Positions 18,236 to 34,924 of a stretch of 64,000 nt of DNA are shown one piece after another (position 1 is the stretch's first letter; each line of letters opens with the position of its first letter). The position numbers were made by a program, and so were the translations under genes. Below the pieces are notes generated by a model. The model was not told where the DNA came from. It saw only the letters and a list, made by a program, of their open reading frames with translations, and made no database searches. Origin of the DNA: Hyphococcus sp. (GTDB taxonomy: Bacteria > Pseudomonadota > Alphaproteobacteria > Caulobacterales > Parvularculaceae); the NCBI GenBank assembly GCA_021776415.1, contig JAJFFY010000044.1:62001-126000 (forward strand). Direction: 5' to 3'.

Positions 18236-19663
18236 CTAACCATCGGCAACATCATACACATTGTACCGATATTTCAGGCTTATCTGATTCCAGACCATAA
18301 ATCGATTGGGGGATATGCGAAAAGCCAATATGGCGTCGCGCCATAGATAAGCGCTGCCCTCATGGATTGATGCTGTCACGACGTATGATCCGGGTGCAAA
18401 GCACAGATCCTCAATATCGATTTTACAGAGGATGCGGCCATCCGTCGTCTTTTTCAGTAGGTTGCCGTTAAGCGTTGATATGGTCGACAGGCGCTTGCCG
18501 TCTTCGGTAAGAAAGACAAGCGAAATATTCAGGTCGGACACCTGCCGCGTCAGGCGGAAGCCATATTCGATAGAAAATGATTCGTTAACACCCACGGTTT
18601 CGTCCGGGTTGTTATCGACAAGCAGCACGCATGAGAACTCCTCAATGCCGGAGGGCTCAATATAACCGCCATATAGTTCATCAACATATTGTTTTGAAAT
18701 AGCCGGACGGTTCCATGAAAATTGCTGGTTGCGGGCAAGGAAGCTGGCGGCGTCTTTTGTTGGATTGGTTGCGGCGCTAGCCGTTTCCACATTGACATAA
18801 AAACGAGGCGCACAAGCGCGCCAGGTCTCGCCAGTATTTTCAGCCTTGGCGATTTGTGGCGCCGCCTGCTTATCTTGGATAGGCGAAGGTTTTTGCGTTT
18901 GCTGTTCCATGAATAGAAGATAGTCCGCGGTTACATCTTCAGCCGGGCCGTCGCTGCGGACTTTCCCTTCGTGAAGCCAGATCGCTCGGTCACAGAATTG
19001 CTTAATGCTGGTCATAGAATGTGACACAAGCAGCATTGCGACGCCTTTTTGCTTCATCGCCTGAAGCTGAAATTTGCATTTATTCTGAAACGCGATGTCG
19101 CCGACGGATAAAGCCTCGTCGATCACGATTAAGTCCGGTTCAAGAAAAGCGCAGAGCGAAAAACCCAGCCGCGACTTCATGCCTGAGCTGTAGGTTTCCA
19201 CCGGACTGTCTATAAACGGGCCGATTTCGGAAAAGTCGATGATACGATCAAACAGATCGGCGCTTTTCTTGACGTTAAGACCGCGCAAGGCGATGCCGTT
19301 GATGACGTTTTCACGCCCGCTGAGGCGTTGGTTAAACCCGGCTCCGAGGTTAATCAGTGCTTGAATCTGACCGTTAATATTGATGCTGCCTCTGCTCGGC
19401 GTAATCAGGCCGGCGAGCATTTTCATCAGCGTTGTCTTGCCGCCGCCATTGCGGCCGATAATGCCAATCGCATCACCAGGATAAATGTCAAGCGATACCT
19501 TTTCAACCGCCCAGAACTCCTGTTCGTCGCGATCAAAGGATAATGGCAAGCATGCGATGTTGCGAAGAATGTCTGCGACGCCACGCGAGACGTTTTGGCG
19601 TGGATTGCGGACAAAATTTTTGCCAACGCCGACGGCGGAGATAATTGGGAGCGTGCGGGTCAT
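18236..19663 (-). CDS. wzt: Polysaccharide ABC exporter ATPase with C-terminal glycan-binding domain (Wzt)
   Basis: A 475-residue protein. The ABC domain (about 1-250) has Walker A GRNGGGKTT at 70-78, signature YSSGM at 158-162, Walker B LIVIDEA and H-loop SHSMTSIKQFC. A linker at about 255-330 leads to a C-terminal beta-sandwich (about 340-470; VGVNESFSIEYGFRLTRQ and FAPGSYVVTASIHEG), the carbohydrate-recognition domain of Wzt proteins that export terminally modified chains. It starts one base after the wzm stop. It therefore energises export of a lipid-linked polysaccharide whose end, perhaps capped by the neighbouring FkbM enzyme, it may recognise. Confidence 0.94.
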   Translation of the reverse strand: MTRTLPIISAVGVGKNFVRNPRQNVSRGVADILRNIACLPLSFDRDEQEFWAVEKVSLDIYPGDAIGIIGRNGGGKTTLMKMLAGLITPSRGSININGQIQALINLGAGFNQRLSGRENVINGIALRGLNVKKSADLFDRIIDFSEIGPFIDSPVETYSSGMKSRLGFSLCAFLEPDLIVIDEALSVGDIAFQNKCKFQLQAMKQKGVAMLLVSHSMTSIKQFCDRAIWLHEGKVRSDGPAEDVTADYLLFMEQQTQKPSPIQDKQAAPQIAKAENTGETWRACAPRFYVNVETASAATNPTKDAASFLARNQQFSWNRPAISKQYVDELYGGYIEPSGIEEFSCVLLVDNNPDETVGVNESFSIEYGFRLTRQVSDLNISLVFLTEDGKRLSTISTLNGNLLKKTTDGRILCKIDIEDLCFAPGSYVVTASIHEGSAYLWRDAILAFRISPNRFMVWNQISLKYRYNVYDVADG

Positions 19664-19664
19664 T

Positions 19665-20480
19665 TTAGAGAAACGTCCGCATGGTTCGGTGAAAGGCGAA
19701 GGCGGCGAAAATAAATATTCCTATTACAAGGAGAGTTACAATCGTCAGGGCTGACGTGTCGACAAACTGTCCGTTGATTAAATAAAGCCTCAGATTTTCG
19801 ATTATGACCGCAACCGGATTGTAGTGGCGGAAAATTTCAAGCCCGCCGGTCAGCGGAAAGATCGCGCCGCTCAAATACATGAGGGGGCGGCTAACCACGC
19901 CGACAGCGATTTTAAGATCTGCAGACGCCAGGGTGAATGGAGCGATCAATAGACCAAGAGCAAGACCGGCAAACATGGCGATGGGCGACAGAAAAATGAA
20001 ACTTACCGTATTCGCCCAGTTAAAAAAACCAAAGGCTACAGTCAGCCCGACAATGATCGGTAGGCGCATTGCCAACATGAATAGTGAGCGCAGCGCCATT
20101 GAAGTGACCAGGCTTTCTGGCGCCACCGCGTAGTTGCCGATCAAGTTTCCCGCGCGCTGCAATGAAGACAACGACAGCATAAGGCTGTCAAAAAAAGTCT
20201 GCCAGATCAAAATTCCGCATACCGCGAACAGTGCGAACGGCATATTCAGCCCGTTAATTTCAAGAATGCCGTTACGGCGCAGGGCGACGAAGATGAAGGC
20301 GAGGACCAGCGGTTCGATAAAGGCCCAGAAGAGCCCAAGCTTGGTCTGGACATATTCGATGCGGATATCGCGAACCGCGAGATGCCAGCCCTGCGAGGGA
20401 GCGGAATTTAGGCCGCGCCGCATACTGGTCAGGGTCTGACGCGCTGTCTGTAAAACGCCGCTTGCCAATTTCAACAACAC
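19665..20480 (-). CDS. wzm: Polysaccharide ABC exporter permease (Wzm)
   Basis: A 271-residue ABC-2 type permease with six predicted spans. The conserved cytoplasmic start LAVRDIRIEYVQTKLGLFWAF is typical of Wzm/KpsM proteins (R-D-x4-Y-x2-S-x-LG in relatives), and the ABC-2 motif lies near PLMYLSGAIFPLTGGL. It pairs with the Wzt ATPase encoded immediately downstream. A 140-bp gap upstream, before the 6-phosphogluconolactonase gene, could hold its own promoter. Size and order match standard wzm-wzt pairs. Confidence 0.94.
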   Translation of the reverse strand: MLLKLASGVLQTARQTLTSMRRGLNSAPSQGWHLAVRDIRIEYVQTKLGLFWAFIEPLVLAFIFVALRRNGILEINGLNMPFALFAVCGILIWQTFFDSLMLSLSSLQRAGNLIGNYAVAPESLVTSMALRSLFMLAMRLPIIVGLTVAFGFFNWANTVSFIFLSPIAMFAGLALGLLIAPFTLASADLKIAVGVVSRPLMYLSGAIFPLTGGLEIFRHYNPVAVIIENLRLYLINGQFVDTSALTIVTLLVIGIFIFAAFAFHRTMRTFL

Positions 20481-20620: not shown

Positions 20621-21331
20621 TCAAGCGAGGACGGCGTTGGCGCAACCCTGATCCATCAGGATTTCGACGCCGGCGCGATGCCCGCATGCGCGCGCAAAAG
20701 GGGGCAAAGCGTCAGAAGGCATGCCGCCTCCGGCGATTACTGGCTTGACGATTGGGGCTTTTTCTGCGCCCCAGGCCAGAACCACATGGCGCTTGCAGCC
20801 TTTCAGGACTTCAAAAGTCACGGTGACGCGCGCCTCGCCATCCAAAGCCCTTGCGGGCGCGGCGAGGCTTGTTGCGTTGAGGGCGTCGTCGCCGGGAAAG
20901 AGCGAGGCGACATGTCCATCCGGGCCAACGCCAATAAGGGCCATGTCGAAGGCCGAAACGCCTCCGAATTGGGAGAGTTCTGCATCATAGGCGGTCGCCG
21001 CCTTTTCCGCGCCCATTGCGCCTTTGATGAGATGCACGTCGGCGCGACGCCAGAAATCGCCCAGATGTCGGCGCGCCAACCCCGCATTACTTCTCTCGTG
21101 GGTAATCGGGACGCATCGTTCGTCAATCCAAAAAAGCCGAAACTGCGCCGGATCAACCGACCCAAGCGAGGCCATTTCGCGTAGCCGGTCGAAAACAAGC
21201 GGCGGGCTGCTTCCTCCCGAGAGCGCCAGCTGAAACGGGCGCGCGCGCGGCTGCCGACTTGCTGCCGCAATGATTCGCGCGGCCTCATCGGCGGCGGCTT
21301 CGCGGTTGGCGAAGACCTGGTGTTCAGTCAT
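20621..21331 (-). CDS. pgl: 6-phosphogluconolactonase (NagB/RpiA-like fold)
   Basis: A 236-residue enzyme of the oxidative pentose phosphate/Entner-Doudoroff route, hydrolysing 6-phosphogluconolactone. Family motifs are LALSGGSSP (phosphate loop), FWIDERCVP and GVGPDGHVASLFPG. Length is normal. Its ATG overlaps the stop of the upstream GT4 gene (ATGA), so it is translationally coupled to a polysaccharide gene rather than sitting with zwf/edd. It may simply serve central metabolism, or act on a sugar lactone in this locus. The sequence alone cannot separate these. Confidence 0.93.
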   Translation of the reverse strand: MTEHQVFANREAAADEAARIIAAASRQPRARPFQLALSGGSSPPLVFDRLREMASLGSVDPAQFRLFWIDERCVPITHERSNAGLARRHLGDFWRRADVHLIKGAMGAEKAATAYDAELSQFGGVSAFDMALIGVGPDGHVASLFPGDDALNATSLAAPARALDGEARVTVTFEVLKGCKRHVVLAWGAEKAPIVKPVIAGGGMPSDALPPFARACGHRAGVEILMDQGCANAVLA

Positions 21332-22521
21332 TTCAACGAATTAATCATTTGAAGAATGCGCGCCGCGCTTTTTTTAACCGAGCGCGCCGCGATAACTCTG
21401 CGCGACAGGGCTGTGTCGGGCCCCTTCCAGGCTGCGGCCGTTTCACATGCGCGCGCGCCCATCGCGGATGCATCGAACCCGTCGATCACAGTTCCAGCAT
21501 TGAGATCGCGGATCAGATCAACTGCGCCGCCGCCGCCTTCGAAGGCGAGAATTTGTGCGCCCATTGCCGCCCCTTCGATGGCGACGCGGGGATAAGGGTC
21601 TTCGGTGGAGGTCACCATAACCGCCGCTGCCCGTCGGAACACAGGCAAAGGGTCAGGGATGGCGCCGGGGAAGAAAATCTGATCGTCAAGCCCCGCTGCA
21701 CGCGTGCGATCAAGCAGGCTGGAATGCATTTCTCCCTCGCCGAGCCAGACAAAGACCAGCCGTCCGGGGCCGTGGTATTTTTTCACCGCGCTTGCGGCGG
21801 CCGCAAAGAATAAATCCGGACCCTTGCGGGGCGTCAGGGTGCCTGCGCCCGCGATCAACCGGTCGTCTGCGGCAAGGCCAAAGCGAACTTCTGTTTCGTT
21901 TTTTTCTGTTGGCGTTCCTGGAACGTCACTCTCGCTAATGGCGACCGCCGGCGGTTCAACGCAAAGCCGATCCGGCGCGATGTGAAACTGTTTTTCAAGA
22001 TCGGTTGCAACGGCTTGCGACGCGCAGAAAAAGAACCGTGTTTTATCGAGACTGCTCTGCCGTCGCAGCGGATCCAGTGCGACAATGGTCGGCGCCAGTT
22101 CACGGACATGGGTGAAGATTGGAGCCGGCGTTTGCAGCAGGTCGATGACATCACCGCAATGGGTTGTGTTGGCGTAGATTGCATCGGGCGCCCATGCATT
22201 TACGGAGGCGACAATGCTATCGGCTGCGATTTGCTCGGTCTTGCTGAGGCAATAAGGACGGTCAGGGTTGCGCAGGCATTTGGCGCCCATGACCGGGCCG
22301 TATCGCCATGTTATGTTAGCGGCGTCGGCAAATGAAAATTGTGGGGACGTCCGCCAGACTGTCGTCGTTGCGATTTTCTCAAATTGTTGCGCAAGCACCC
22401 CGCCCCGGCGCAAGATGACTCGCAACTCTACGCCCAATTTTCTAAACTCGCGCGTAAGCTGGAGGCAACTGATCGGCGCGCCTGTGGTCTCTGCAGCATG
22501 GGAAATAATTAACAACCGCAT
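21328..22521 (-). CDS. Glycosyltransferase family 4, copy A of the DUF115-GT4 module
   Basis: A 397-residue GT-B protein. It starts MRLLIISHAAETTGAPIS with the acceptor-side GAPIS loop and has HVREL in the N-terminal domain. In the donor domain GAGTLTPRKGPDLFFAAA is followed by STEDPYPRVAIEGAAMGA, the E-x7-E equivalent. It closely parallels the GT4 at 38632-39843: same length class, same GAPIS and HVREL motifs, and the same position after a DUF115 gene. Its start overlaps the DUF115 stop by one base (TAATG) and its end overlaps pgl by four, giving a coupled DUF115-GT4-pgl unit. Confidence 0.88.
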   Translation of the reverse strand: MRLLIISHAAETTGAPISCLQLTREFRKLGVELRVILRRGGVLAQQFEKIATTTVWRTSPQFSFADAANITWRYGPVMGAKCLRNPDRPYCLSKTEQIAADSIVASVNAWAPDAIYANTTHCGDVIDLLQTPAPIFTHVRELAPTIVALDPLRRQSSLDKTRFFFCASQAVATDLEKQFHIAPDRLCVEPPAVAISESDVPGTPTEKNETEVRFGLAADDRLIAGAGTLTPRKGPDLFFAAAASAVKKYHGPGRLVFVWLGEGEMHSSLLDRTRAAGLDDQIFFPGAIPDPLPVFRRAAAVMVTSTEDPYPRVAIEGAAMGAQILAFEGGGGAVDLIRDLNAGTVIDGFDASAMGARACETAAAWKGPDTALSRRVIAARSVKKSAARILQMINSLK

Positions 22522-23405
22522 TATGCGTTGCTTTCAAACAGTTTGTTAAAGTCAATGCGCTCAAAGACTTCCAGCTTGCCGCCATGCGTTGCGTTTAAGA
22601 CGTTGCGGCCATCGCTCTCAAAAGCGGCCCTGGCGATTTCAAATGCTTGCGTTTGCAGGTCGACATTGGGAACGCCGATCATGTCGCCGATCTTATAGTA
22701 CTGGTCTGTGAAATGCGCTTTGTTAACCAGCGCTTGATTTTCAACCGTCACGGTTATTTTCCCGGGTGCAAAGTCGTCAGAGAGTCTACCATAATCATGG
22801 TCGACGCCGACAAGATAGACTGGATCGCAGCCCAGAAAATAAGCAAGCTGCAACGCGATATAAGTTATCGTTGAGCCAAGATAAACTGTCTGTGGGAAGT
22901 CGCGGGAAAATTGAATGCCGGGATCGTCCCAATACGCATCATCGGCGAGGCGGGCATTCATGAATAAAAGATCTTTCCAAGGGCGCGCAATAGCATATGC
23001 GTTGTGAAGCGCTGCGATTTTTAACGGCCCGTTTATGTGTCTGATTTCCGGTCCGCGAATTTCGGTCTGCTCGACATCTTCGAACAGAAGATAACTGGCC
23101 GCGAACCCCCAGTCATTAAACGCCTTATAGGCGCCGTTGGCGGCGATGGTGATTTCATTATTGAGCCGGAAGATGTCGGTTTGCTTAAGGCTGGGGCCGT
23201 TGCCGATAATGAAGCAGGGCTTGCCAGCGCCTGAGCCTTTCAAGGCGGCGATCCGGCTCTGATCCCCCGGAATCTTGCCGATGCGAAAACCGCGTTCGCT
23301 GCGTTTAACTCCAATCCGGTCGAAAAAACGCTGGCGCGCGCATAGCAAACGCCAATATCCCAAGGGATATTTCCATTTCGGAAATCGCGCCGACCATGCG
23401 ATCAT
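22521..23405 (-). CDS. MptE-like/DUF115 family protein, copy A (putative glycosyltransferase)
   Basis: A 294-residue protein with the family hallmark GNGPSLK at 68-74, followed by TIAANGAYKAF. Other strong blocks are YLLFEDVEQTE, GIQFSRDF, VYLGSTITYIALQLA, LGCDPVYLVGVDHDYG and YYKIGDMIGVPNV. The MptE-like/MAF_flag10 family includes archaeal pterin diphosphokinase and the catalytic domain of Maf flagellin glycosyltransferases, which transfer nonulosonic acids. Here, beside a CMP-sugar operon, a transferase role is more likely than pterin chemistry; this is inference. It shares a 108-bp divergent promoter region with the CMP-sugar synthetase gene, and a full-length paralogue lies at 39840-40721. 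Confidence 0.8.
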   Translation of the reverse strand: MIAWSARFPKWKYPLGYWRLLCARQRFFDRIGVKRSERGFRIGKIPGDQSRIAALKGSGAGKPCFIIGNGPSLKQTDIFRLNNEITIAANGAYKAFNDWGFAASYLLFEDVEQTEIRGPEIRHINGPLKIAALHNAYAIARPWKDLLFMNARLADDAYWDDPGIQFSRDFPQTVYLGSTITYIALQLAYFLGCDPVYLVGVDHDYGRLSDDFAPGKITVTVENQALVNKAHFTDQYYKIGDMIGVPNVDLQTQAFEIARAAFESDGRNVLNATHGGKLEVFERIDFNKLFESNA

Positions 23406-23513: not shown

Positions 23514-24200
23514 ATGAAAATCGCCATGACGCCGGCCCGGCTCGGCAGTCAGCGTTTAAAGAAGAAAAACCTCGCGCCGCTGGCCGGAGTCGAGTTGGTT
23601 CGGCGCGCGGTCAGGCGTTGCAAGGCGGCGGATTGTTTCGACGCCATTTATATAAACTCTGAAAGTAATCTTTTCCGGCCGATCGCCGAGGAGGAGGGCG
23701 TGCTTTTTCATAAGCGGGCCGAAGCTTTGGCATCGAATACCGCGACAAGCGAGGATTTCGTTGCTGAGTTCATGGAAAGCCACCCTTGCGACAGGCTCTA
23801 TCAGGTTCATTCTATCGCGCCATTGGTCCCGGCCCGAGAAATTGCCGCATTTTCACAATTTGTGAAAACATCCGGCGCTGATACGGTGCTAAGTTGCGTC
23901 GAAGAACAGATCGAATGCGCCTATCAGGGCGCGCCGGTCAATTTTTCACTTACGGAGAAAACCAATTCGCAGGACCTTATCCCAATCCAGCGCATCACAT
24001 GGAGCCTGACGGCATGGACGCCTGCCATATTTCTCGCGGCGAAAGAGCGGGGCGAATGCGCGACTTATGCAGGCAAGGTCGCCTATTACGCCCTTGATAG
24101 GCCCTCTGGCATCATCATAAAAGTGCAGGAGGATCTTGATATGGCGGAAGCTCTTTTGGCCCAACTTGGCGACGGCCCTCAATATGGCGGCGGCAAATAA
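23514..24200 (+). CDS. CMP-sugar synthetase (acylneuraminate cytidylyltransferase family)
   Basis: A 228-residue nucleotidyltransferase. The N-terminal CTP-binding motif PARLGSQRLKKKNL at 7-20 matches the P-A-R-x-G-S-x2-(I/L)-x2-KN loop of NeuA/KdsB-type enzymes. Later VHSIAPLVP corresponds to the usual L-Q-x-T/S-x-P segment. Such enzymes join CMP to the anomeric carbon of a 2-keto sugar acid (sialic, legionaminic, pseudaminic acid or Kdo). The substrate here is unknown. The gene heads the seven-gene plus-strand operon 23514-29398 and is divergent from the DUF115-GT4-pgl unit. Confidence 0.85.
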   Translation: MKIAMTPARLGSQRLKKKNLAPLAGVELVRRAVRRCKAADCFDAIYINSESNLFRPIAEEEGVLFHKRAEALASNTATSEDFVAEFMESHPCDRLYQVHSIAPLVPAREIAAFSQFVKTSGADTVLSCVEEQIECAYQGAPVNFSLTEKTNSQDLIPIQRITWSLTAWTPAIFLAAKERGECATYAGKVAYYALDRPSGIIIKVQEDLDMAEALLAQLGDGPQYGGGK

Positions 24201-24225
24201 AGTTTGTTTTTACAAGGATATTTAA

Positions 24226-24795
24226 GTGACCAACGACAGTGAATTTTTGAAGGATTATTTTGGGCGACTGGAAACATTTGCGCATCTTGACGATGGCCTA
24301 TTTGAGCAGCTGACGGCAGTGCGCGACCTCTGGCTTAAGGCTAGGACGGCGGGCGGCAAAGTGATCTTTATTGGCAATGGCGGTTCGGCGGGCATTGCGG
24401 CGCATTTGGCGATTGACCTCGGCAAAAACGGCGGCGTTCCTGCGGCATGCTTTAACGATGGCGCGCAGATCACCTGTCTTGCCAATGATTACGGATTTGA
24501 AAACTGGATTGCTCATGCCTTGCGCATTCAAGGGCGCTCCAGCGACACGTTGGTTGCGATTAGTTCCTCCGGCCGCTCGCCAAATATTCTCAATGCGATC
24601 AAACAGGCGCGGGAAATGGGTGTCAGCGTTGTGACATGTTCGGCGATGGACGCGGGTAATCCTCTGCGCGCTTCTGGCGACATAAACCTTTGGGCCGACA
24701 GTTGCGCATATAATATCGTCGAAACCGTACATCAGTTCTGGATGATGTCGGTGATTGATTTGATCATCGGCAAAGCTGAATATCCAGCGAACTAG
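24226..24795 (+). CDS. SIS-domain phosphosugar isomerase (GmhA-like)
   Basis: A 189-residue single SIS domain. GNGGSAG at 50-56 and SSSGRSPN at 113-120 are the phosphosugar-binding loops; the pattern is that of GmhA, which converts sedoheptulose-7-P to a heptose-7-P. Length matches GmhA (about 190). The start is GTG at 24226 with AAGGA centred 7-8 bases upstream; no ATG fits. Dedicated heptose kinase and phosphatase genes (hldE/hddA, gmhB) are not nearby, so a heptose product is only one option. It is the second gene of the CMP-sugar operon, 25 bp after the synthetase. Confidence 0.85.
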   Translation: MTNDSEFLKDYFGRLETFAHLDDGLFEQLTAVRDLWLKARTAGGKVIFIGNGGSAGIAAHLAIDLGKNGGVPAACFNDGAQITCLANDYGFENWIAHALRIQGRSSDTLVAISSSGRSPNILNAIKQAREMGVSVVTCSAMDAGNPLRASGDINLWADSCAYNIVETVHQFWMMSVIDLIIGKAEYPAN

Positions 24796-24837
24796 ACAGC
24801 GCGTAGTAACGACTCTGGCGTCAGGGGTGCAACGGTC

Positions 24838-25890
24838 ATGGACAAATTGCGAATCGCAATTGTCGGTTATGGAAAGATGGGGCGTATAAGAAGCGCCACC
24901 ATTGACGCGCGTGACGATTGTGCGGTGACGGCAATCTATGATCCTTTTGTCGATCTTGGCGCAGAACGTGCGCGCGGTCTCAAAACCGGCGCCGACTGGA
25001 AGGCGTTGCTTGAAGACGACGACATAGACGCCGTCATTATCAGCTCCACCAATGACGTCATCCCGAAAGTTGCGGTTGCCGCCCTTAACAAGGGCCTTCA
25101 CGTTTTTTGTGAAAAACCGCCAGGCAGAAACGTCGCCGATATTGAAGCGATCATTACTGCGGCGCGAACGCAGCCAAGTGTTAAGTTAAAATTCGGGTTC
25201 AACCACCGTTACCACGAAGCCGTAGAGAGCGCGCGCAAGCTTGTCGATGGTGGGCGCATGGGCGACATTCTTTGGATGCGCGGCGTCTACGGAAAGGCTG
25301 GCGGCAAGGATTTCGATCACAACTGGCGCAACGATCCCAAGAAATCAGGAGGCGGAATATTGCTCGATCAGGGCATTCATATGCTCGATTTGTTTCATGA
25401 TTTTTGCGGCGAATTTGACGACGTAAAAAGCTTCATTGGGCGGCAATATTGGAATGTGCCAGTAGAAGATAATGCATTCGCAATGCTACGCAACGCTCGC
25501 GGGCAAGTGGCGACGATCCATTCTTCGGCTACGCAATGGCGCCACACGTTCAGGCTGGAGATTTATCTCGAAAAGGGCTTTTTGTCTCTTAACGGCATTT
25601 TATCATCAACCATGACCTACGGTAGGGAAAGCCTTACAGTCGCACGCACGCATTTCGACGACAATGGTTACCCGAACCCAAACCCAGAAGAAACGATTAG
25701 CTATTTCGAAGAAGACCGCTCTTGGGAAAAAGAAATGGAAGAATTCGTTACCGCTATTGGCGAGGATCGCGAGATCGTGATCGGCACGCCTGAGCATGCA
25801 TTGGCGGCGATGCGAGCGGTGGAACGGATTTACAAAAGCGATTCCGGTACGGATGTCTCTACTCTTGCAGACGGCGTGGTGAAAAAATGA
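24838..25890 (+). CDS. Gfo/Idh/MocA-family sugar oxidoreductase
   Basis: A 350-residue NAD(P)-dependent dehydrogenase. The N-terminal Rossmann fold has GYGKMG at 10-15, and the EKPP motif at 92-95 carries the catalytic lysine. The C-terminal substrate domain includes GGGILLDQGIHMLDLFHDFCG, with the D-x3-H catalytic pair typical of the family. It likely oxidises or reduces a sugar, sugar acid or nucleotide sugar. It does not resemble WlbA/WbpB closely by eye, so is not clearly the partner of the WbpE-like aminotransferase. It is the third gene of the CMP-sugar operon and overlaps the next gene by four bases (ATGA). Confidence 0.9.
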   Translation: MDKLRIAIVGYGKMGRIRSATIDARDDCAVTAIYDPFVDLGAERARGLKTGADWKALLEDDDIDAVIISSTNDVIPKVAVAALNKGLHVFCEKPPGRNVADIEAIITAARTQPSVKLKFGFNHRYHEAVESARKLVDGGRMGDILWMRGVYGKAGGKDFDHNWRNDPKKSGGGILLDQGIHMLDLFHDFCGEFDDVKSFIGRQYWNVPVEDNAFAMLRNARGQVATIHSSATQWRHTFRLEIYLEKGFLSLNGILSSTMTYGRESLTVARTHFDDNGYPNPNPEETISYFEEDRSWEKEMEEFVTAIGEDREIVIGTPEHALAAMRAVERIYKSDSGTDVSTLADGVVKK

Positions 25891-26891
25891 AAACAACGGT
25901 CCTTCTTGATGAACTGCATCTGTCCGATGTACGCCCCGACGCTGTGTCGCAGGAATATGCGCGGTTGCGGCGAGAAGAGGCGATCAGCCTTACCTGTGAT
26001 CCTGGCGTTGTCTGGACCGAGCGCGTTTTCCCGACGCCCGGCTGTTCACCTGAAGCGGTTTTCGAGAGTGACAGTCTCAAATTCCAGCACTGCGCGGATT
26101 GCGGCTCCCTTTACGCATCGCCGATCCCGGATCAGGCTACCCTCGATAGGCTTGCAAAAAATGGGGCCGCGTCGCGTTTGCGGCGGGACTATTACGCGCA
26201 GCGTTTTTCCGACCGTCAACGGTCGTCCATTCACGATCCCTTGTTGCGCTGGGCCAGTGAAATTGCCGATGAGTACGGGCTGGAAAAGCCCGCGATCGCT
26301 TTCGTCGGCAATGATGAGACTGGTGCGGCGGCGGCGATCGCGGACAAGCTTGATGCAACGCGCCTGGTGAAGGTCGCCTGCGTGTCCGGTCAGAAAGATC
26401 GTGATGGCGTTGAGACGTTTTCTGCTGATGACGCTCCGCACGCCGAATTTGACCTGGTTGTCGATCTTGGCTCGCTGGAGCGGGTCGCAGACCCTGCGGC
26501 GCGATTCTCGCTTTGGGCCCGCCTTTTGAAGCCGGAAGCGCTACTCGCATTCACGACGAGCAACGCCAGTGGGCTTGAATATCGGCTGCTTGGCGCGGCT
26601 GCGCCGAGCTTTCTCGCGCTTGACCGTTTGAACCTTTATTCCATCCCCGCATTACACGATGCGATTAAAGCAGCAGGCTTCGCTGCGGCGGAAATCTCAA
26701 CCCCCGGACGCATTGATGTTGAGCTGATTAAACACGCGCTGGAACAAAGTGAAAAACTGCCTTCAATGGATTTCTGGCGTCATGCTTTCACCTATGGCGG
26801 GCAAGAGATGGAAGCAGACCTTCAGATGTTCTTGCAACGGCGCCGGTTTTCCTCCTATGTCCGCGTGTTAGCGCGCCGTGCTGGCGCATAG
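25887..26891 (+). CDS. Methyltransferase-like protein with degenerate SAM-binding motif
   Basis: A 334-residue protein laid out like class I sugar C-/O-methyltransferases with an N-terminal metal-binding part. C69 and C72 (CADCGSLYASP) resemble the CxxC knuckle, and the helix TLDRLAKN follows. The central region reads AIAFVGNDETGAAAAI where a GxGxG loop is expected, then FDLVVDLGSLERVADP, the equivalent of the D-x-V...L-E-H...DP segment. Loss of the glycine motif makes catalysis doubtful; it could bind another ligand or be a structural homologue. It is the fourth gene of the operon, coupled to the oxidoreductase gene. Confidence 0.6.
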   Translation: MKTTVLLDELHLSDVRPDAVSQEYARLRREEAISLTCDPGVVWTERVFPTPGCSPEAVFESDSLKFQHCADCGSLYASPIPDQATLDRLAKNGAASRLRRDYYAQRFSDRQRSSIHDPLLRWASEIADEYGLEKPAIAFVGNDETGAAAAIADKLDATRLVKVACVSGQKDRDGVETFSADDAPHAEFDLVVDLGSLERVADPAARFSLWARLLKPEALLAFTTSNASGLEYRLLGAAAPSFLALDRLNLYSIPALHDAIKAAGFAAAEISTPGRIDVELIKHALEQSEKLPSMDFWRHAFTYGGQEMEADLQMFLQRRRFSSYVRVLARRAGA

Positions 26892-26933
26892 CGCTTAGGT
26901 TTTGTAGTCGGCTGCGGAGAAGGAATGTTGTCT

Positions 26934-27857
26934 ATGAATGCTGCAAAAGGCCGTATTCTGATTGGCCCGTCTAGTTATGGAGACGCAAGTGCAGCGCCTG
27001 TCGACCGTCTCAAAGCCGCTGGCTATGAGGTGATCGACAATCCTTTCAAGCGCCGGCTGACGCGCGAGGAGCTGCTTGAGTTGTTACCTGGAATCGTTGG
27101 GCTGATCGCCGGGCTAGAACCGCTAGATCATGACGTTCTTTCGAAGTGCGAATTGAAAGCCCTGGCGCGGGTCGGCTCAGGCATGACCAATGTCGATCAG
27201 GATGCAGCGCGCTCTCTTGGCGTTCGGGTGTCATCGACGCCAGACGGGCCGGTTCTGGCGGTGGCAGAGTTGACGGTAGGCTCGCTGTTGGCGCTGCTCA
27301 GGCAAACGCCAGCGATGGATAGAGCCATGCGCGCCGGCGGCTGGGAAAAACGCATGGGCCGCCAGCTCCGGGACTTGAAGGTTGTTATTGTCGGCTTTGG
27401 CCGCATCGGCCGTAAGACCGGCGAGCTTCTGCGCGCGCTCGGGGCGGAGGTCATGGTGTCCGATCCCTTCCTTGGGGCGGTGGCGGACGGTGTCGTGAAT
27501 ATTGCTCTCGATGAAGCGTTGAAGGAGGCGGATGCGATCGTCCTTCACGCCAGCGGTGAGGATGTTATTCTCGATCAGGCGGCGTTCGACTTGATGCGTG
27601 AGGGGGTTTATATTTTGAACCCCGGTCGCGGCGAGCTGATCGACTATAATGCTTTGTTCAAAGCGCTTGACGCAGGACGGGTCGCTGGCGTCTGGGCGGA
27701 CGCCCACCCGGAAGAACCCTATAAGGGCGATCTCCTTAATTACGAACAGGCTTTGTTGACGCCGCATATCGGGTCTTATTCGTTGGAAGGGCGCATCAAG
27801 ATGGAAATGGATGCGGCGGATAATCTGTTGGCGGACCTTTCCGCCGCCGGCGCTTAA
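26934..27857 (+). CDS. D-2-hydroxyacid dehydrogenase (3-phosphoglycerate dehydrogenase-like)
   Basis: A 307-residue NAD-dependent enzyme. The Rossmann loop VGFGRIG lies near 153-159. Catalytic residues are the arginine in NPGRGEL and the histidine in TPHIGSYS; the usual glutamate lies in the DAHPEEP segment. It lacks the ACT and ASB domains of housekeeping SerA, so it is the short form. It interconverts a 2-hydroxy acid and a 2-keto acid, which suits synthesis of a keto-acid sugar. The ATG at 26934 sits 9 bases after AGAAGGA; an ATG at 26925 would be only one base away from that site and is less likely. Confidence 0.85.
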   Translation: MNAAKGRILIGPSSYGDASAAPVDRLKAAGYEVIDNPFKRRLTREELLELLPGIVGLIAGLEPLDHDVLSKCELKALARVGSGMTNVDQDAARSLGVRVSSTPDGPVLAVAELTVGSLLALLRQTPAMDRAMRAGGWEKRMGRQLRDLKVVIVGFGRIGRKTGELLRALGAEVMVSDPFLGAVADGVVNIALDEALKEADAIVLHASGEDVILDQAAFDLMREGVYILNPGRGELIDYNALFKALDAGRVAGVWADAHPEEPYKGDLLNYEQALLTPHIGSYSLEGRIKMEMDAADNLLADLSAAGA

Positions 27858-27863
27858 GCGGTG

Positions 27864-28601
27864 ATGGACCTTCGGGAGCTTCTTGACGCCGCCAAGGCGG
27901 CCGCGTTGGAGGCGGGAGAGGCTTTGCGAGGCCGGGGAGAGGCGTTTCAGGGCGTCGCTGCTTCTCAAGGGCGTGATATCAAGCTGAATGCTGATAAAGC
28001 GGCGGAGAAGATCATTCTGCCGCGCCTTCGCGCCGCTGCGAATTATCCGATTCTTTCAGAAGAGGCGGGATGGACTGCTGCGAAAGCTGGTCGGTATTGG
28101 GTCGTTGACCCGCTTGACGGATCGGCCAATTACAATCGCCGGATTCCTTTATGCTGTGTATCGATCGCTCTGGTTGAAGACGATAAAGCGATCCTCGGAG
28201 TCATCAACCACTTCGACGTCGAGGACCTTTACGCAGGCGCGGTTGGCCATAGCGCAGAGATGAACGGCGCGCGGCTCCGCGTCAGCGGCGTGCATGATAC
28301 GGGGCAGGCGATCCTAATGACAGGCCTTCCTGTCTATCGCGATTTTTCTGATGATGCGCTTGCCGCCTTTGCCCGTGATTTTGCTCGTTGGAAGAAAGTG
28401 CGGATGATCGGCTCAGCGGCGCTCTCGATCGCTTTTGTCGCATCAGGAAAAGCCGATCGGTATGCTGAAGACTCTATCATGTTCTGGGATGTCGCTGCGG
28501 GTTGCGCTATCGCCGAAGCTGCGGGCGGGCGGGCGACCCTCTCTGCGGGGCCAATGGATGAGGCGAAGACTGTCTGTGTCGATAATGGGGCGTTGCCTTG
28601 A
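27864..28601 (+). CDS. Inositol-monophosphatase family phosphatase
   Basis: A 245-residue metal-dependent phosphatase. Metal sites are visible as SEE at 65-67 and DPLDGSANY at 82-90, with the later MFWDVAAG motif of the family. Members act on inositol phosphates, PAP or sugar phosphates. In this operon it would remove phosphate from a sugar-acid phosphate before CMP activation, as is needed for nonulosonic acids and Kdo. GTG at 27861 or ATG at 27864 could start it. It is the sixth gene of the operon and its stop overlaps the next start. Confidence 0.87.
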   Translation: MDLRELLDAAKAAALEAGEALRGRGEAFQGVAASQGRDIKLNADKAAEKIILPRLRAAANYPILSEEAGWTAAKAGRYWVVDPLDGSANYNRRIPLCCVSIALVEDDKAILGVINHFDVEDLYAGAVGHSAEMNGARLRVSGVHDTGQAILMTGLPVYRDFSDDALAAFARDFARWKKVRMIGSAALSIAFVASGKADRYAEDSIMFWDVAAGCAIAEAAGGRATLSAGPMDEAKTVCVDNGALP

Positions 28602-29398
28602 GGCCGGATGAAATTGCCGCCCTTTCAAAGCGTTTAGCGGGCGCGCGGCAGACGAAAAGCATTATCGAGCCAGACCGTGAAGCACTGGCGCCGGCCAACA
28701 TGAATGAGGCGCTTAAGGTCGCGCTGGCGTCCATGACTACCGAGCCAGCTGCATGGAAGCTTGGCGGAACCAATCAGGCCACGCGCGATGTTTTCGGCGT
28801 TACCGCCCCATATTTCGGGCCGCTCGCAGCTTCGGATATTTTTGAGAGCCAACAGACGATTTCGCGCGAGGCCTATCCAGAGCCGCTTTTCGCCGAGCCT
28901 GAAATCGCCGTCGCGTTCGATAGAACATTTGAGCCAAGCCAGGACCGGCGAGATGAAAAATACCTCCTCGCCGCCCTCGCATGGGTTGCGCCGGCGCTTG
29001 AGATGCCATCGACCTGCCTCGATAATGTTCAAGCGGCGGGTGTCAAATGGCTTGTGGCTGATCGTTGCGCTGCAGGCGCGCTTGTCGTTGGCGAAAGGTT
29101 TACTCCTGATCATCTGGGGTGGCTTGAAGCGTCTCTGTGCCGGGTTGTATGCGATGATGATACGCCTGTCGTTGGGCGCGAAGGGTTGATCGGAGGCGTT
29201 ATGGGCGCCGTCGCGGAAGCCCTTCTTGAGTTTGGCCGGTGCGGAATACCGGTGAACAAAAACGTCATTTTATCAACCGGTGGGCTGGCGCCTGCGGTTA
29301 ATGTCGGCGTCGCCCATTGCATTGCCGCAGTTTTTTCTGATCGATCCGGTTTGGAGTTCAAGGTTGAAGCCCGTTTCAGCGATATGCCCACTCAGTAA
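28598..29398 (+). CDS. 2-keto-4-pentenoate hydratase-like protein (FAH superfamily)
   Basis: A 266-residue protein of the MhpD/2-oxopent-4-enoate hydratase group. EPE at 100-102 (FAEPEIAVAF) supplies metal-binding carboxylates, and STGGLAPAVNVG near the C-terminus resembles the family's TG(S/G)...P end. Characterised members add water to, or decarboxylate, short 2-keto acids in aromatic degradation. No aromatic pathway is nearby. I infer hydration/dehydration of a 2-keto-3-deoxy sugar acid. The likely start is TTG at 28598, overlapping the phosphatase stop (TTGA). It is the last gene of the operon. Confidence 0.8.
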   Translation: MRPDEIAALSKRLAGARQTKSIIEPDREALAPANMNEALKVALASMTTEPAAWKLGGTNQATRDVFGVTAPYFGPLAASDIFESQQTISREAYPEPLFAEPEIAVAFDRTFEPSQDRRDEKYLLAALAWVAPALEMPSTCLDNVQAAGVKWLVADRCAAGALVVGERFTPDHLGWLEASLCRVVCDDDTPVVGREGLIGGVMGAVAEALLEFGRCGIPVNKNVILSTGGLAPAVNVGVAHCIAAVFSDRSGLEFKVEARFSDMPTQ

Positions 29399-29573: not shown

Positions 29574-29650
29574 AGTGGCGTGTGGTTCGGATAGTTGGGA
29601 TCAGAAGCGTCGCTCCAATTTTAGTGGCGTTTCTAGGTGGGAGTACAGTG

Positions 29651-30319
29651 ATGTTTAAGAAAGGTTTAATTGGGGCCACGGTGTCCTTAGCGGTTATGTT
29701 CGGTGTTGCCGCGGCGGCGCCTATAACTTTTGGCACTGTAACGACAGATGTAGCTAATTATGCGGATCGGGTTTCTCTGGTTTCAGGATCATCTCAGCTG
29801 TTTGAGATTGATGGTCTAGCTAACGGAAACGCAAACAGCACAGTCGGCCGGGAAGGTCCTAATCTGGATGTCATCGCGTGTCGCGGCGATATGGGGTGCT
29901 CTTTTGACATCTTTTTTAATGGCGGTGTCGAGAATCAGGCTGGCGACGATCTTGCCATTTTTGGGCTTGGCGGCGACGGTACGATTGCTGAGACATTTAG
30001 CCTTATCATTAACGGCATTACGGTTTCCGGTCTTGAGCTGGTTCAATCAAACGTAGTTGTCGGAACCGACCTGCGGCCTGAGGGATACAATATTAAGCAG
30101 TTATTGATTAACCTTGACCTGTTTAACCTTGCCCTCAGTGAAACCATCACTGGCATTCGTGTTGTTGTTGATGGCGGTGTCAACCCTGAAGAATTTGCAG
30201 CGTTTGCATCTTTGAATGCGGAATATTCAGAAATTCCGCTTCCAGCCGCCTTCCTGTTTTTCCTAAGCGGCGCCGCCGGTCTTTTGGGGGCTAGCCGCAA
30301 AAAGAAACGTGCTAGCTGA
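29651..30319 (+). CDS. Secreted protein with VPLPA-CTERM-type sorting tail
   Basis: A 222-residue exported protein of unknown function. An N-terminal signal peptide (MFKKGLIGATVSLAVMFGVAAAA) is followed by a beta-rich body with no recognised domain and by a C-terminal sorting signal: EIPLPA at 194-199, a hydrophobic span, and the basic end SRKKKRAS. This three-part tail is the VPLPA-CTERM/PEP-CTERM type cleaved by exosortase-like enzymes, usually in exopolysaccharide-producing bacteria. No exosortase gene is in the window. The ATG at 29651 has GGTGGGAG about 7 bases upstream and starts the signal peptide directly, so the in-frame start at 29582 is rejected. Confidence 0.85.
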   Translation: MFKKGLIGATVSLAVMFGVAAAAPITFGTVTTDVANYADRVSLVSGSSQLFEIDGLANGNANSTVGREGPNLDVIACRGDMGCSFDIFFNGGVENQAGDDLAIFGLGGDGTIAETFSLIINGITVSGLELVQSNVVVGTDLRPEGYNIKQLLINLDLFNLALSETITGIRVVVDGGVNPEEFAAFASLNAEYSEIPLPAAFLFFLSGAAGLLGASRKKKRAS

Positions 30320-32440: not shown

Positions 32441-33397
32441 TTAGTGTGAAAGATGCGATGAAAGCGCCGCAGCGATTTTCTTTGAATGGATGGTCTGGCA
32501 TTCTTCGTTCAGGTGTTCGCGGGAGTCGAAAAAACAGCCCTTCGAATACTGATTTAAATTATCAAGAACAAAAAACTCCGCGGTGTCCGAGGTGGCATAC
32601 CAGGATTGAATTTTCCCGATCGCTTTTTGATCGGGCGCAGTGGTGTCAAAAGATGACGGCAGCGTGCCAAGAACGCGAATATTGCGTGCTTCAGCCCACT
32701 TAAAAAAGGCCATCAATCGGCTGGGCGGGGTTTCAAGCGCCGCGATTTTCGGCATTTCCTCTGCAGAGGAGTGAAAGTCGTCGATTTTATCGCGGAACTT
32801 TTCACCTGCGTTGGCAGTGTGTCCCTGATAATCTCCTTGCGGGGTTAGTCGCCCCTCTTTATCGAAGCTGTGGCGGTGGCCGCCCATGTAGCGACTGGTC
32901 TCGGCGAGGGCGTTGAAAAGATATTTAAGATCGAAATAAAAAAGCGCTTCGAGGAAATGGTCAGCACCCAAAGCCGGCGCGAGCTGTTTTTCATGCCTGA
33001 TGATATAGGGGAACGAAATGCGCGCGCGCATTTCATCCGCATCGAGAAAGTACATGCGGAATTCCCAGGGCAGGAGAACCGTGTCGCCGGGTTTGGCGAC
33101 TTGCTTGACCTGTTCCAAAATAGTCTCGCGCCCCAGCGCTACTGCGATCGAGATGTTAACGCAGGGAATGCCTGTTTCCTTTTCTATTGTTTCGCAACGT
33201 ACGCTAAAGAATGGGCCGCTGCCGCCAGCGACAACGATTTTGGGCGCTTTAATAGCATCGCCATAGGCGCGCTTGGCTGAGTAAACGCGATCGAAGATAC
33301 CCACCGAGAGCGGCTTGTCGATCAGAACGCCAAAGAAAAACGTATAAACTAGGATGCCGGTGACAATCGAGGCGATGACTTTTAAAATTGCGGCCAT
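32441..33397 (-). CDS. SGNH/AlgJ-like partner of an MBOAT O-acyltransferase (putative)
   Basis: A protein of 318 residues from the ATG at 33397. One N-terminal membrane anchor (about 3-25) precedes a periplasmic domain. GGSGPFFSVRC near residue 60 could hold the serine of an SGNH-type fold, and DSREHLNEECQTIH near the C-terminus resembles the D-x-x-H end of such hydrolases. Proteins like this follow AlgI-type MBOAT genes and complete acyl transfer to the glycan. The alternative ATG at 33412 directly abuts the MBOAT stop; the later one is preferred because GGGAG lies just before it. The assignment rests mostly on context. Confidence 0.6.
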   Translation of the reverse strand: MAAILKVIASIVTGILVYTFFFGVLIDKPLSVGIFDRVYSAKRAYGDAIKAPKIVVAGGSGPFFSVRCETIEKETGIPCVNISIAVALGRETILEQVKQVAKPGDTVLLPWEFRMYFLDADEMRARISFPYIIRHEKQLAPALGADHFLEALFYFDLKYLFNALAETSRYMGGHRHSFDKEGRLTPQGDYQGHTANAGEKFRDKIDDFHSSAEEMPKIAALETPPSRLMAFFKWAEARNIRVLGTLPSSFDTTAPDQKAIGKIQSWYATSDTAEFFVLDNLNQYSKGCFFDSREHLNEECQTIHSKKIAAALSSHLSH

Positions 33398-33412
33398 ACC
33401 GCTCCCTTTCAT

Positions 33413-34924
33413 TTAGAATTGGAAGTAGATGAACTCTTCCGACGCCTTACCAAAAAATACGGCCTGAATAACAAGTCCGACAACGAGCGCCACGATGATC
33501 AGGCGCCCTCTCTGTGATCCGCGCAAAGCAGTTTGTGACAACGCCACGGCGAGCCCGAGCAGGACGTAGCCGGTTGATGCCAATAGCTCGTTCCACATTG
33601 CCTTGTCGGCGAAGAGGCTCGTGCCGGGCGCCGCGAAATCGAAACTCTCTTGCACCATTCCGAACATCGCCAGCAATTGCGGCGGCGCGTAGACGCCGTT
33701 GAAGCCGAGATACCCGGCGGCGATATTCATCGCGGCATCGAAACTCTCCGCCCGAAAAAAAATCCAGGCGAGGCCCACCGCCCAAAAAGTCAACGCCCAT
33801 CCTGCTAGTTTGGTCACCCGTGAAGCGAAGAACCGCTCCGCCCCGCGCATGCGCATGGCGACAGAATTGAATAGATGGTTGACCGCCAAATACGCCCCGT
33901 GCAGGCCGCCCCAGACAACAAAAGTCCAGGCTGCGCCGTGCCAGAGCCCGCCGAGCAGCATGGTCGCCATCAGATTGATATAGCGCCGCGCCCGTCCGTG
34001 GCGATTGCCGCCGAGAGGGATATAAAGATAATCGCGCAGGAAGGTCGACAGGGTGATATGCCAGCGCCGCCAGAAATCAATAATGCTGGTTGAGCGATAG
34101 GGCGCAGCGAAATTTTCAGGCATTTTCAACCCGAACAGCAGGCCGAGTCCGACCGCAATATCTGAATACCCGGAAAAGTCGAAGTAAATCTGCCCGGCGA
34201 AAGCAAGGGTGGCAAGCCATGCCTCCAAGAGCGTAAGCGTTGCGCCCGCCGCAGCTTCGCCAAACATCAGATCGACGGTCGGCGATAGCCCGTCGGCGAG
34301 CACGGATTTTTTAAACAGCCCGATAATAATTATTGTAAGTCCGGCTGCAAACATTTCCCCGGTTGGCCGCGCAAACCGTTTTTCTTTCAGTTGCGGGACA
34401 AAGTCATTGTGATGGACGATCGGTCCGGCGATGAGTTGCGGAAAGAAGGAAATAAACACTGCATAGTCGATAAAACTATAATTTAAAATATGTTTGCGTT
34501 TATTACTGTCGGCGAGAAATGCGATCTGCTGGAAAGTGAAGAATGAAATACCGAGCGGCAGAACGATTTTGAAGACGTTGATATCGAAACCGAACATAAA
34601 TTCGATATTGTTGATGAAGAAGTCGAAATATTTAAAGACGAATAACAGGCCGAGGTTAAAGGCGATGCCTGTGATAAACATCATGCGTCGTTGAGGGTGG
34701 CCATCCTCAAGAAGGTCGAGTTTGCGGCCGATAAAAAAATTGACGGCGATCGATCCGAATAGAAGGGTCAGGTAGGGCCAGTCCCAATACCCATAGAAAA
34801 CTGCCGAGGCGCCAAGCAACCATAGTTTGCAGGCCTCAACATTCCACCAGCGGCGCAGCGTCAGGGCGCCGATCAGTGTTACGGGAAGGAAATAGACAAG
34901 AAACGGGACCGAACTGAAAAGCAT
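33413..34924 (-). CDS. MBOAT-family O-acyltransferase (AlgI-like)
   Basis: A 503-residue membrane protein. Family motifs are GQIYFDFSGYSDIAVGLG (about 245-262), NFAAPYRSTSIIDFWRRWHITL with H289, LRDYLYIPLGG, and the catalytic histidine H329 in LLGGLWHGAAW. AlgI/PatA-type MBOATs move acetyl groups across the membrane for O-acetylation of alginate, peptidoglycan or exopolysaccharide. The partner SGNH-like gene follows directly. It sits among glycosyltransferase genes, so the exported polysaccharide is the likely acceptor. Confidence 0.94.
   Translation of the reverse strand: MLFSSVPFLVYFLPVTLIGALTLRRWWNVEACKLWLLGASAVFYGYWDWPYLTLLFGSIAVNFFIGRKLDLLEDGHPQRRMMFITGIAFNLGLLFVFKYFDFFINNIEFMFGFDINVFKIVLPLGISFFTFQQIAFLADSNKRKHILNYSFIDYAVFISFFPQLIAGPIVHHNDFVPQLKEKRFARPTGEMFAAGLTIIIIGLFKKSVLADGLSPTVDLMFGEAAAGATLTLLEAWLATLAFAGQIYFDFSGYSDIAVGLGLLFGLKMPENFAAPYRSTSIIDFWRRWHITLSTFLRDYLYIPLGGNRHGRARRYINLMATMLLGGLWHGAAWTFVVWGGLHGAYLAVNHLFNSVAMRMRGAERFFASRVTKLAGWALTFWAVGLAWIFFRAESFDAAMNIAAGYLGFNGVYAPPQLLAMFGMVQESFDFAAPGTSLFADKAMWNELLASTGYVLLGLAVALSQTALRGSQRGRLIIVALVVGLVIQAVFFGKASEEFIYFQF

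Follow-up and report, generated by a model that had tools for sequence, protein, structure and literature searches.

A recurrent bacterial gene set for a CMP-activated acid sugar, found as a seven-gene operon in Hyphococcus sp.

The DNA analysed here (the window) is a stretch of 64,000 nucleotides from Hyphococcus sp. (assembly GCA_021776415.1, contig JAJFFY010000044.1, positions 62,001 to 126,000), and our subject is an operon within it, at positions 23514-29398, that begins with a cytidine monophosphate (CMP)-sugar synthetase gene. Seven open reading frames, called A to G, lie there on the + strand. They encode the cytidylyltransferase A (23514-24200), the SIS isomerase B (24226-24795), the Gfo/Idh/MocA dehydrogenase C (24838-25890), the methyltransferase-like protein D (25887-26891), the D-2-hydroxyacid dehydrogenase (2-HADH) E (26925-27857), the inositol-monophosphatase-family phosphatase (IMPase) F (27861-28601) and the 2-keto-4-pentenoate-hydratase-like (MhpD-like) protein G (28598-29398). 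The distances from each gene to the next are 25, 42, -4, 33, 3 and -4 bases, and the single strand and the overlapping starts (two are seen) noted in a preliminary description of this DNA are confirmed. The families that it named were recovered with Pfam for A to F (CTP_transf_3, SIS_2, Gfo/Idh/MocA, Methyltransf_23, 2-Hacid_dh and Inositol_P). No Pfam family was found for G, which takes its label from weak PDB matches and from a weak NCBIfam match to 2-keto-4-pentenoate hydratase (E 5.9e-9, 35.6 bits for a cut-off of 350). D had no match in NCBIfam, and none of the seven genes reached an NCBIfam cut-off, so that none can be named as a known enzyme. That the frames are real genes is shown by homologues in the same order in Maricaulis salignorans and by their recurrence in distant bacteria.

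A is predicted to be a CMP-ulosonate synthetase-like enzyme with a NeuA-like fold. A profile of twelve A proteins matched murine CMP-Neu5Ac synthetase best (E 1.9e-29). When the AlphaFold model of A (pLDDT 88.9, pTM 0.84) was submitted to Foldseek, the 17 best PDB matches were all CMP-nonulosonate synthetases, at TM scores of about 0.7-0.8; KdsB structures followed, with IspD among them. Phylogenetically, A grouped with all but one of 17 A-like relatives (support 97/99), apart from the NeuA and KdsB rows; this group has several open forks and long internal branches. On four KdsB models A scored 24.8-38.7 bits against cut-offs of 193-281, and is therefore not of the KdsB type by curated cut-off.

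The metal site of NeuA is formed by a C-terminal pair of Asp residues. In Aquifex KdsB a magnesium ion is held by D219 and D95, as described in PMC3149649. In window-type A proteins, the place of KdsB D219 is occupied by Lys203 and that of the other NeuA Asp by Ile or Val201; in alignment A6, position 203 is Lys in 9 of 12 rows and Asp in the other three. Residues 201-207 of the window protein (gene at 23514-24200) constitute an IspD-like Lys motif in a NeuA-fold synthetase. Because the Lys and Asp types share the same partner genes, we take the exchange to affect a detail of catalysis; that it alters the substrate is the rival view.

The solved structures closest to B are those of GmhA, the sedoheptulose-7-phosphate isomerase, and B scored 81.3 bits on the GmhA equivalog of NCBIfam (cut-off 209.45). 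His60 and Asp64 of B align with GmhA His61 and Glu65. At the place of His180, an active-site residue of GmhA, seven of the nine rows of alignment A7 have His, with Met in the window and Thr in L033 (L and G numbers are our labels for loci and genomes); Met was also seen by eye in Maricaulis and G411 (L139, L140). In view of these replacements, isomerase activity may possibly have been lost in the alphaproteobacterial B proteins. When its own profile was run at E 1e-8, B was the sole match in each of four genomes (the window genome, Maricaulis, G411 and G1191). E keeps R235, E264 and H281 in all six aligned rows, thus the Arg-Glu-His triad that characterises D-2-hydroxyacid dehydrogenases. A weaker homologue of C (37% identity) belongs to a heptose-like operon on two Rhizobium plasmids. 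In the copy tested (L142), the HddA-, GmhA- and GmhB-like proteins scored below their cut-offs and the transaldolase above, and the nucleotidyltransferase scored higher on MurU than on HddC.

In G, E100, E102 and E135 are invariant in five of five rows and reproduce the Glu-x-Glu plus Glu pattern of metal ligands in MhpD/FAH-like hydratases, and G fits a 2-keto acid substrate. D contains Cys pairs and adjoins or lies near C in each of its seven loci. Its earlier label, methyltransferase-like, is upheld by Methyltransf_23 but not by the usual S-adenosylmethionine (SAM) motif, which by eye is intact only in L027 and degenerate, seemingly lost, in the other copies; methylation by D is uncertain.

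Two genes of the opposite strand, both recurring in some other copies, are probably also part of the locus. The divergent gene Mpt (22521-23405, - strand) is MptE-like by PF01973. A profile of six Mpt members matched CstII of family GT42 (7e-6), archaeal HPPK (8e-4) and Maf (0.011). With the Mpt model (pLDDT 70), Foldseek gave Maf as best match (5mu5, E 1.5e-6, TM 0.50), next the archaeal pterin kinase HPPK, and sialyltransferases at E 0.009 and weaker. Mpt is thus a candidate GT42/Maf-like CMP-sugar transferase, the likeness to HPPK making the match a support and not a proof. The second gene, pgl (20621-21331, - strand; PF01182, TIGR01198), encodes a 6-phosphogluconolactonase-like (6PGL-like) protein that is also present at the loci of Maricaulis, G853 and G1191. 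On TIGR01198 (cut-off 124.45) the window protein scored 124.4 bits, just below, and the other three 140.9, 188.6 and 202.4. In the genomes of Maricaulis, G853 and G1191 (85% complete), the 6PGL-like gene is the sole PF01182 match; G411 has one such match, outside the locus.

These families occur together in other genomes, across phyla and often in reshuffled order. A search of genome contigs with A found three loci, one in Maricaulis salignorans and two on separate contigs of one Desulfobacterales metagenome-assembled genome (MAG). In Maricaulis, homologues of A, C, D, E, F and G keep their order at 41-70% identity and, as in the window, a 6-phosphogluconolactonase-like gene, a glycosyltransferase and an ABC exporter are found nearby. 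With the window's own genome included, A matched 2 of 385 genomes of the class (E 1e-15), 3 of 299 of the order (E 1e-25) and 4 of 398 of the phylum (E 1e-30); in the class of the Desulfobacterales MAG, 8 of 291 genomes matched, the MAG included (E 1e-25). None of the 20 genomes of the same genus listed in the order-level search (E 1e-25) had a match. Among 72,556 plasmid records, three matched (E 1e-20), and all three carry the set. The order is C, D, B, F, A, E, with G nearby, in Leisingera aquaemixtae; E, C, B, G, F, A in Sinorhizobium fredii SMH12; and A, B, E, F, D, C in Paenibacillus cellulosilyticus. That these orders differ argues for a shared pathway and not for mere common descent of a block. 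Overall, the gene for A is rare and patchy, and the set extends to other Alphaproteobacteria, another class of the same phylum, the class of the Desulfobacterales MAG and Paenibacillus.

In total, 19 distinct loci outside the window were recovered with A, and in 11 of them E lies within about 10 kb (L003, L004, L013, L024, L027, L030, L032, L033, L034, L079, L080). In L025 and L026, which are alike (G890, G893), A, B, F and Mpt are together, with C and E about 36 kb off on the same contig. Besides the synthetase, SIS and IMPase genes, L025:7219-15278 encodes a radical SAM protein, a Methyltransf_23 protein and a transketolase that is split. In Maricaulis and G411, B is found together with an Mpt gene on the contig that carries the other genes, at distances of about 13 and 20 kb from them; the idea that these two lack the isomerase was rejected when the B profile found it there.

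A sister arrangement occurs in L028, L029 and L031, where a non-homologous Ldh_2-type 2-hydroxyacid dehydrogenase lies directly upstream of A and a Gfo/Idh gene downstream (confirmed with Pfam in L029 and L031, the L031 Ldh_2 spanning two frames). L027 holds both types, having Ldh_2 next to A plus a block of D, a KdsB-like synthetase, C, B, E and F. The stretches with Ldh_2, then the NeuA-like synthetase and a close Gfo/Idh gene are L028:7639-10599, L029:7545-10505, L031:7667-10655 and L027:6099-9221. They suggest a second variant free of phosphoenolpyruvate (PEP), though L028 and L029 also contain NeuB. Three loci have neither kind of dehydrogenase: L005, where a contig end cuts A short, L006, and L081, which holds NeuB and resembles an ordinary NeuA locus. 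L006:7252-17108 appears as another orphan CMP-sugar set, with an A-like synthetase, an HMGL-like aldolase (Pfam) and, by eye, a KdsB-like synthetase and an HAD-like protein.

Presence was tabulated by hand for 13 loci: the window, Maricaulis, G411, G737, G893 (L027), Leisingera, S. fredii, Paenibacillus, G890, G853, G1208, G1191 and G753 (L100). A locus comprised the regions on one contig (two contigs for G1191); L004 (a 3.5-kb contig with A, B and E), L026 (for its likeness to L025) and L101-L104 were excluded. C and E are present in all 13, A in 12 (L100 has a KdsB-like synthetase only), B in 12, F in nine, D and Mpt in seven each, G in five, all of them alphaproteobacterial, a dehydroquinate (DHQ)-synthase-like protein and the 6PGL-like protein in four each, and an HpcH-type aldolase in two. 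Twelve loci, the window among them, were entered via A and one via E, which makes for some circularity in the counts of A and E but leaves those of B, C and F unaffected. In five loci (L013, L032, L033, L079, L080) E was assigned by position and family, at 168-193 bits versus 381-524 for the other full-length E proteins. The constant parts are the synthetase, the Gfo/Idh enzyme, the 2-HADH and the GmhA-like isomerase, plus either the IMPase or the DHQ-synthase-like cyclase. The hydratase, listed among the seven enzymes in the preliminary description, is not part of this core.

The association was also visible when starting from E. In the order of G737, 242 genomes were searched with a profile of six E proteins (A9), and 18 of them had a match at E 1e-70. 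The best seven matches (L030, L024, L100, L101, L102, L103, L104) all lie near a CMP-sugar synthetase; as L030 and L024 were rows of the profile, five of these are independent. One of the remaining 11 lies near a synthetase (L108, on a 6-kb contig). Neighbourhoods of about 9 kb on each side were examined with profiles that we built. L100 contains a KdsB-like synthetase above the kdsB cut-off with C, E, an SDR protein, a DHQ-synthase-like protein and an HpcH/HpaI aldolase. The trio of HpcH/HpaI aldolase, KdsB- or NeuA-like synthetase and 2-HADH is shared by L100-L104 (by Pfam in L100, L101 and L102, by profile only in L103 and L104), with an HAD protein too in L101 and L102, and it possibly represents a pyruvate- or hydroxypyruvate-aldolase route to ulosonic acids. 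As a control, the same profiles were run on 12 regions from set-bearing genomes, of which ten surround a NeuB gene and two a KdsB gene. E and C occurred together only in L120 and L121 (alike, G890/G893), 3-4 kb from a 623-aa NeuB-like protein; the other matches to B-G were a weak C in L125 (61 bits) and a weak D in L126 (31 bits). The Gfo/Idh gene of L079 was sought in E. coli genomes, with the aim of reaching a serotype of known structure, and found no match there.

Consistent with what had been described, no PEP-dependent synthase of the NeuB/KdsA type was found among A-G or their identified neighbours. PF03102, the NeuB family, likewise had no match in the window genome (85% complete), in G411 (99% complete) or on the small Leisingera plasmid. 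Exactly two CTP_transf_3 matches occur in the window genome and also in G411, namely A and one that passes the kdsB cut-off. One KdsB accompanies one KdsA in these two genomes, so A is left there without an obvious synthase; Kdo itself is a possible substrate of A in both. In the Paenibacillus plasmid record searched, the nearby NeuB is PseI (above cut-off), accompanied by PseG (above cut-off) and by its own KdsB-like protein. At L120:3278-10185 (G893), E and C lie a few kb from the 623-aa NeuB-like protein, and some 36 kb separate them from A, B, F and Mpt; this is possibly a mixing of the two routes.

The IMPase and the DHQ-synthase-like protein never occur together (nine versus four loci). 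The corresponding Fisher p of 0.0014 serves as description only, being drawn post hoc from a hand-made table that ignores relatedness; in G1191, whose contigs end within the locus, an IMPase could be missed. The DHQ-synthase-like protein exceeds the TIGR04425 cut-off in L030 and L079, and DHQ-synthase domains were found in L100 and L141. These AroB relatives accompany SDR proteins in CMP-sugar loci (L030:9353-10435, L079:11596-12660, L141:12309-13436, L100:10879-11976), and by eye that of L079 adjoins flagellar-looking genes. DHQ synthase expels the C7 phosphate of hept-2-ulosonate-7-phosphate, so the IMPase and the cyclase could be alternative means of removing phosphate from one type of intermediate. 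The alternation of the two, the GmhA-like isomerase and the C homologue in the Rhizobium heptose-like operon favour a C7 chain. The chain is thus probably derived from sedoheptulose-7-phosphate, a point less certain than the PEP-free route.

Overall, there is good support for a gene set that recurs among bacteria and serves a CMP-activated acid sugar, and it is new to the literature searched: in titles and abstract openings, mostly outside subscription papers, no description of the set was found, and the statement that no described pathway uses it stands within that search. To our knowledge, the ulosonic acids that are known in CMP-activated form, namely Kdo and the sialic, pseudaminic and legionaminic acids, take their keto-acid end from PEP. 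In the most economical reading, to which we give an even chance, the cluster provides a surface polysaccharide with a CMP-activated ulosonic acid (a 2-keto sugar acid) and needs no PEP-dependent synthase to do so. We infer each reaction, the carbon number, the order and the direction of the route as follows. The starting compound would be a ketose phosphate, in all likelihood sedoheptulose-7-phosphate. Its isomerisation by B would yield an aldose phosphate, which C would oxidise at C1 to an aldonolactone phosphate. The 6PGL-like enzyme would open the lactone to an aldonate phosphate, E would oxidise C2 to give the 2-keto-aldonate phosphate, and F would remove the terminal phosphate. The resulting ulosonic acid would be activated by A to a CMP-ulosonate and transferred by the MptE-like protein. 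G, as an accessory enzyme acting on a 2-keto acid, and D could modify the product or assist. Such a route would follow the logic of Kdo synthesis (SIS isomerase, phosphatase, CMP synthetase), with two oxidations in place of the PEP condensation. In the sister variant of G853, G1191, G1208 and G753, the DHQ-synthase relative would cyclise heptulosonate-7-phosphate to a carbocyclic, quinate-like acid for CMP activation; the carbocyclic product is speculation. The full proposal, an oxidative route from sedoheptulose-7-phosphate to a CMP-activated non-deoxy hept-2-ulosonic acid together with this carbocyclic variant, we regard as doubtful.

The operon can be compared with several known systems. 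With the Kdo pathway (KdsD, KdsA, KdsC, KdsB) it would share a SIS-fold isomerase, a phosphatase, a CMP-ulosonate synthetase and a surface polysaccharide as destination; it differs by the lack of a KdsA-type synthase among the seven genes, by two dehydrogenases, by a phosphatase of the IMPase instead of the HAD family and by a synthetase that is NeuA-like in 12 of 13 loci. The NeuB/NeuA pathways (Neu5Ac, Pse, Leg, Kdn) also use a NeuA-fold synthetase, and the neighbour Mpt appears to resemble GT42/Maf transferases. However, A-G include neither NeuB nor a UDP-sugar epimerase, an aminotransferase or an acetyltransferase, and a classical Pse/Leg locus was dropped for want of NeuB in the window genome as sequenced. 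The guanosine diphosphate (GDP)-D-glycero-D-manno-heptose pathway (GmhA, HddA, GmhB, HddC) has in common with the operon the GmhA-like isomerase, the proposed substrate sedoheptulose-7-phosphate and, through the Rhizobium operon, a relative of C. It differs in that A-G contain no heptose kinase or HddC-type nucleotidyltransferase, that oxidation to an acid is proposed and that CMP and not GDP would be the carrier; a plain GDP-heptose operon was dropped on account of the missing kinase and HddC-type genes. A protein like the uncharacterised, AroB-related putative cyclizing phospholyase TIGR04425 replaces the IMPase in four of the 13 loci and is absent from the window locus. Phosphonate activation was likewise dropped, as no PEP mutase was noticed, though no search was aimed at one, and so was the hydratase G as key step, because eight of 13 loci are without it.

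Several observations weigh against a PEP-free oxidative route. KdsA was found in all nine genomes or records searched, above cut-off in eight, that of the window genome being on another contig, and NeuB is present elsewhere in 8 of 11; moreover, the window genome is only 85% complete. The concern that a NeuB or KdsA homologue elsewhere supplies the synthetase is answered in part, by the absence of NeuB from the window genome and G411, but not for KdsA. C and E lie within a few kb of the NeuB-like protein in G890 and G893, and the Ldh_2-type loci L028 and L029 hold NeuB together with a separate second NeuA-type gene. HpcH/HpaI aldolases occur in L027, L100 and the E-bearing L101-L104. Window A has neither Asp of the NeuA metal site (Ile201 and Lys203 instead), and window B has Met174 at the place of GmhA His180. 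The 2-HADHs of L011 and L012, from two genomes, are as similar to window E as are the E proteins of L013, L032, L033, L079 and L080. The 6PGL-like gene is found in only four of 13 loci, with two further PF01182 genes elsewhere in the window genome, and D has no explained place in the route.

The aldolases could mean that the keto-acid skeleton is built by condensation. In that case glycerate would be oxidised by E, which is related to phosphoglycerate dehydrogenase, to hydroxypyruvate or hydroxypyruvate phosphate. An HpcH/HpaI-type aldolase would join this product or pyruvate to an aldehyde, and the synthetase would charge the resulting acid. Since such aldolases do accompany the synthetase and the 2-HADH in L027 and L100-L104, some variants may include a C-C bond-forming step. 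As the general account it is unlikely: the scan of the window region turned up no HpcH-type aldolase, 11 of the 13 loci likewise showed none, and the isomerase, the Gfo/Idh enzyme and the lactonase would be left without a role. Alternatively, A could charge an acid derived from PEP, either Kdo made via KdsA or an acid from a synthase that escaped detection, while B to G would only decorate it or make another sugar. The distribution of KdsA and NeuB and the incompleteness of the window genome favour this view, which we nonetheless consider rather unlikely, given that the window genome and G411 each own a KdsB for Kdo and that the set is kept with the synthetase across phyla, including in Paenibacillus, whose NeuB is a PseI with PseG and a separate KdsB-like cytidylyltransferase.

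The metal-site replacements raise the question of an IspD-like activity, in which window-type A would place CMP onto a phosphate instead of an anomeric hydroxyl and yield a CDP-linked sugar acid or polyol. IspD uses a Lys at the place of the NeuA metal-site Asp, and Lys203 with Ile or Val201 gives A an IKxxxDL-like end; an IspD/TarI-like protein of L034, named by eye, has MKITTPTD near its C-terminus, and IspD structures appear among the Foldseek matches of A, below NeuA and amid KdsB. The NeuA-type structures are nevertheless the best fold matches, and the same partners accompany Asp-type A proteins (L025, L030, L034, L079) or a KdsB-type synthetase (L027, L100), so that they seem to serve a CMP-ulosonate synthetase. 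We therefore hold the IspD-like activity to be quite improbable. Finally, two unrelated functions might share the locus, for example CMP-Kdo-like charging on the one hand and, on the other, a UDP- or dTDP-sugar that is modified by the Gfo/Idh enzyme, the methyltransferase-like protein and the hydratase. Gfo/Idh enzymes often act on nucleotide sugars, and D and G are missing from many loci. Yet C and E are present in all 13 loci and B in 12 while gene orders vary, and E alone retrieves synthetase loci, which makes a chance assembly of two functions very improbable.

Further genes lie around the operon. A Glycos_transf_1-type glycosyltransferase (21328-22521, - strand) adjoins Mpt and has a homologue next to pgl in Maricaulis. 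A polysaccharide ABC exporter ATPase with a Wzt_C domain (18236-19663, - strand; ABC_tran and Wzt_C above cut-off) and a presumed exporter permease (19665-20480, - strand; no Pfam match) have homologues in L003 and L024, where those of the permease again lie next to the ATPase. Directly 3' of the operon, positions 29582-30319 encode a secreted-looking protein with, by eye, a PEP-CTERM/VPLPA-like sorting tail and no Pfam match. At 32441-34924, an MBOAT acyltransferase (Pfam) and a partner are encoded; G411 has similar proteins close to its copy of the set (L013:1581-3242).

If the PEP-free route is true, it would be a new way to build surface sugars of the sialic acid kind. It predicts surface sugars that retain the 3-hydroxyl, would account for orphan NeuA-like genes in genomes without NeuB and would supply enzymes for the synthesis of non-deoxy ulosonic acids. 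A NeuA-like gene would then be no proof, by itself, of sialic acid. The product of the sister variant, if it exists, would be a carbasugar counterpart of sialic acid or Kdo.

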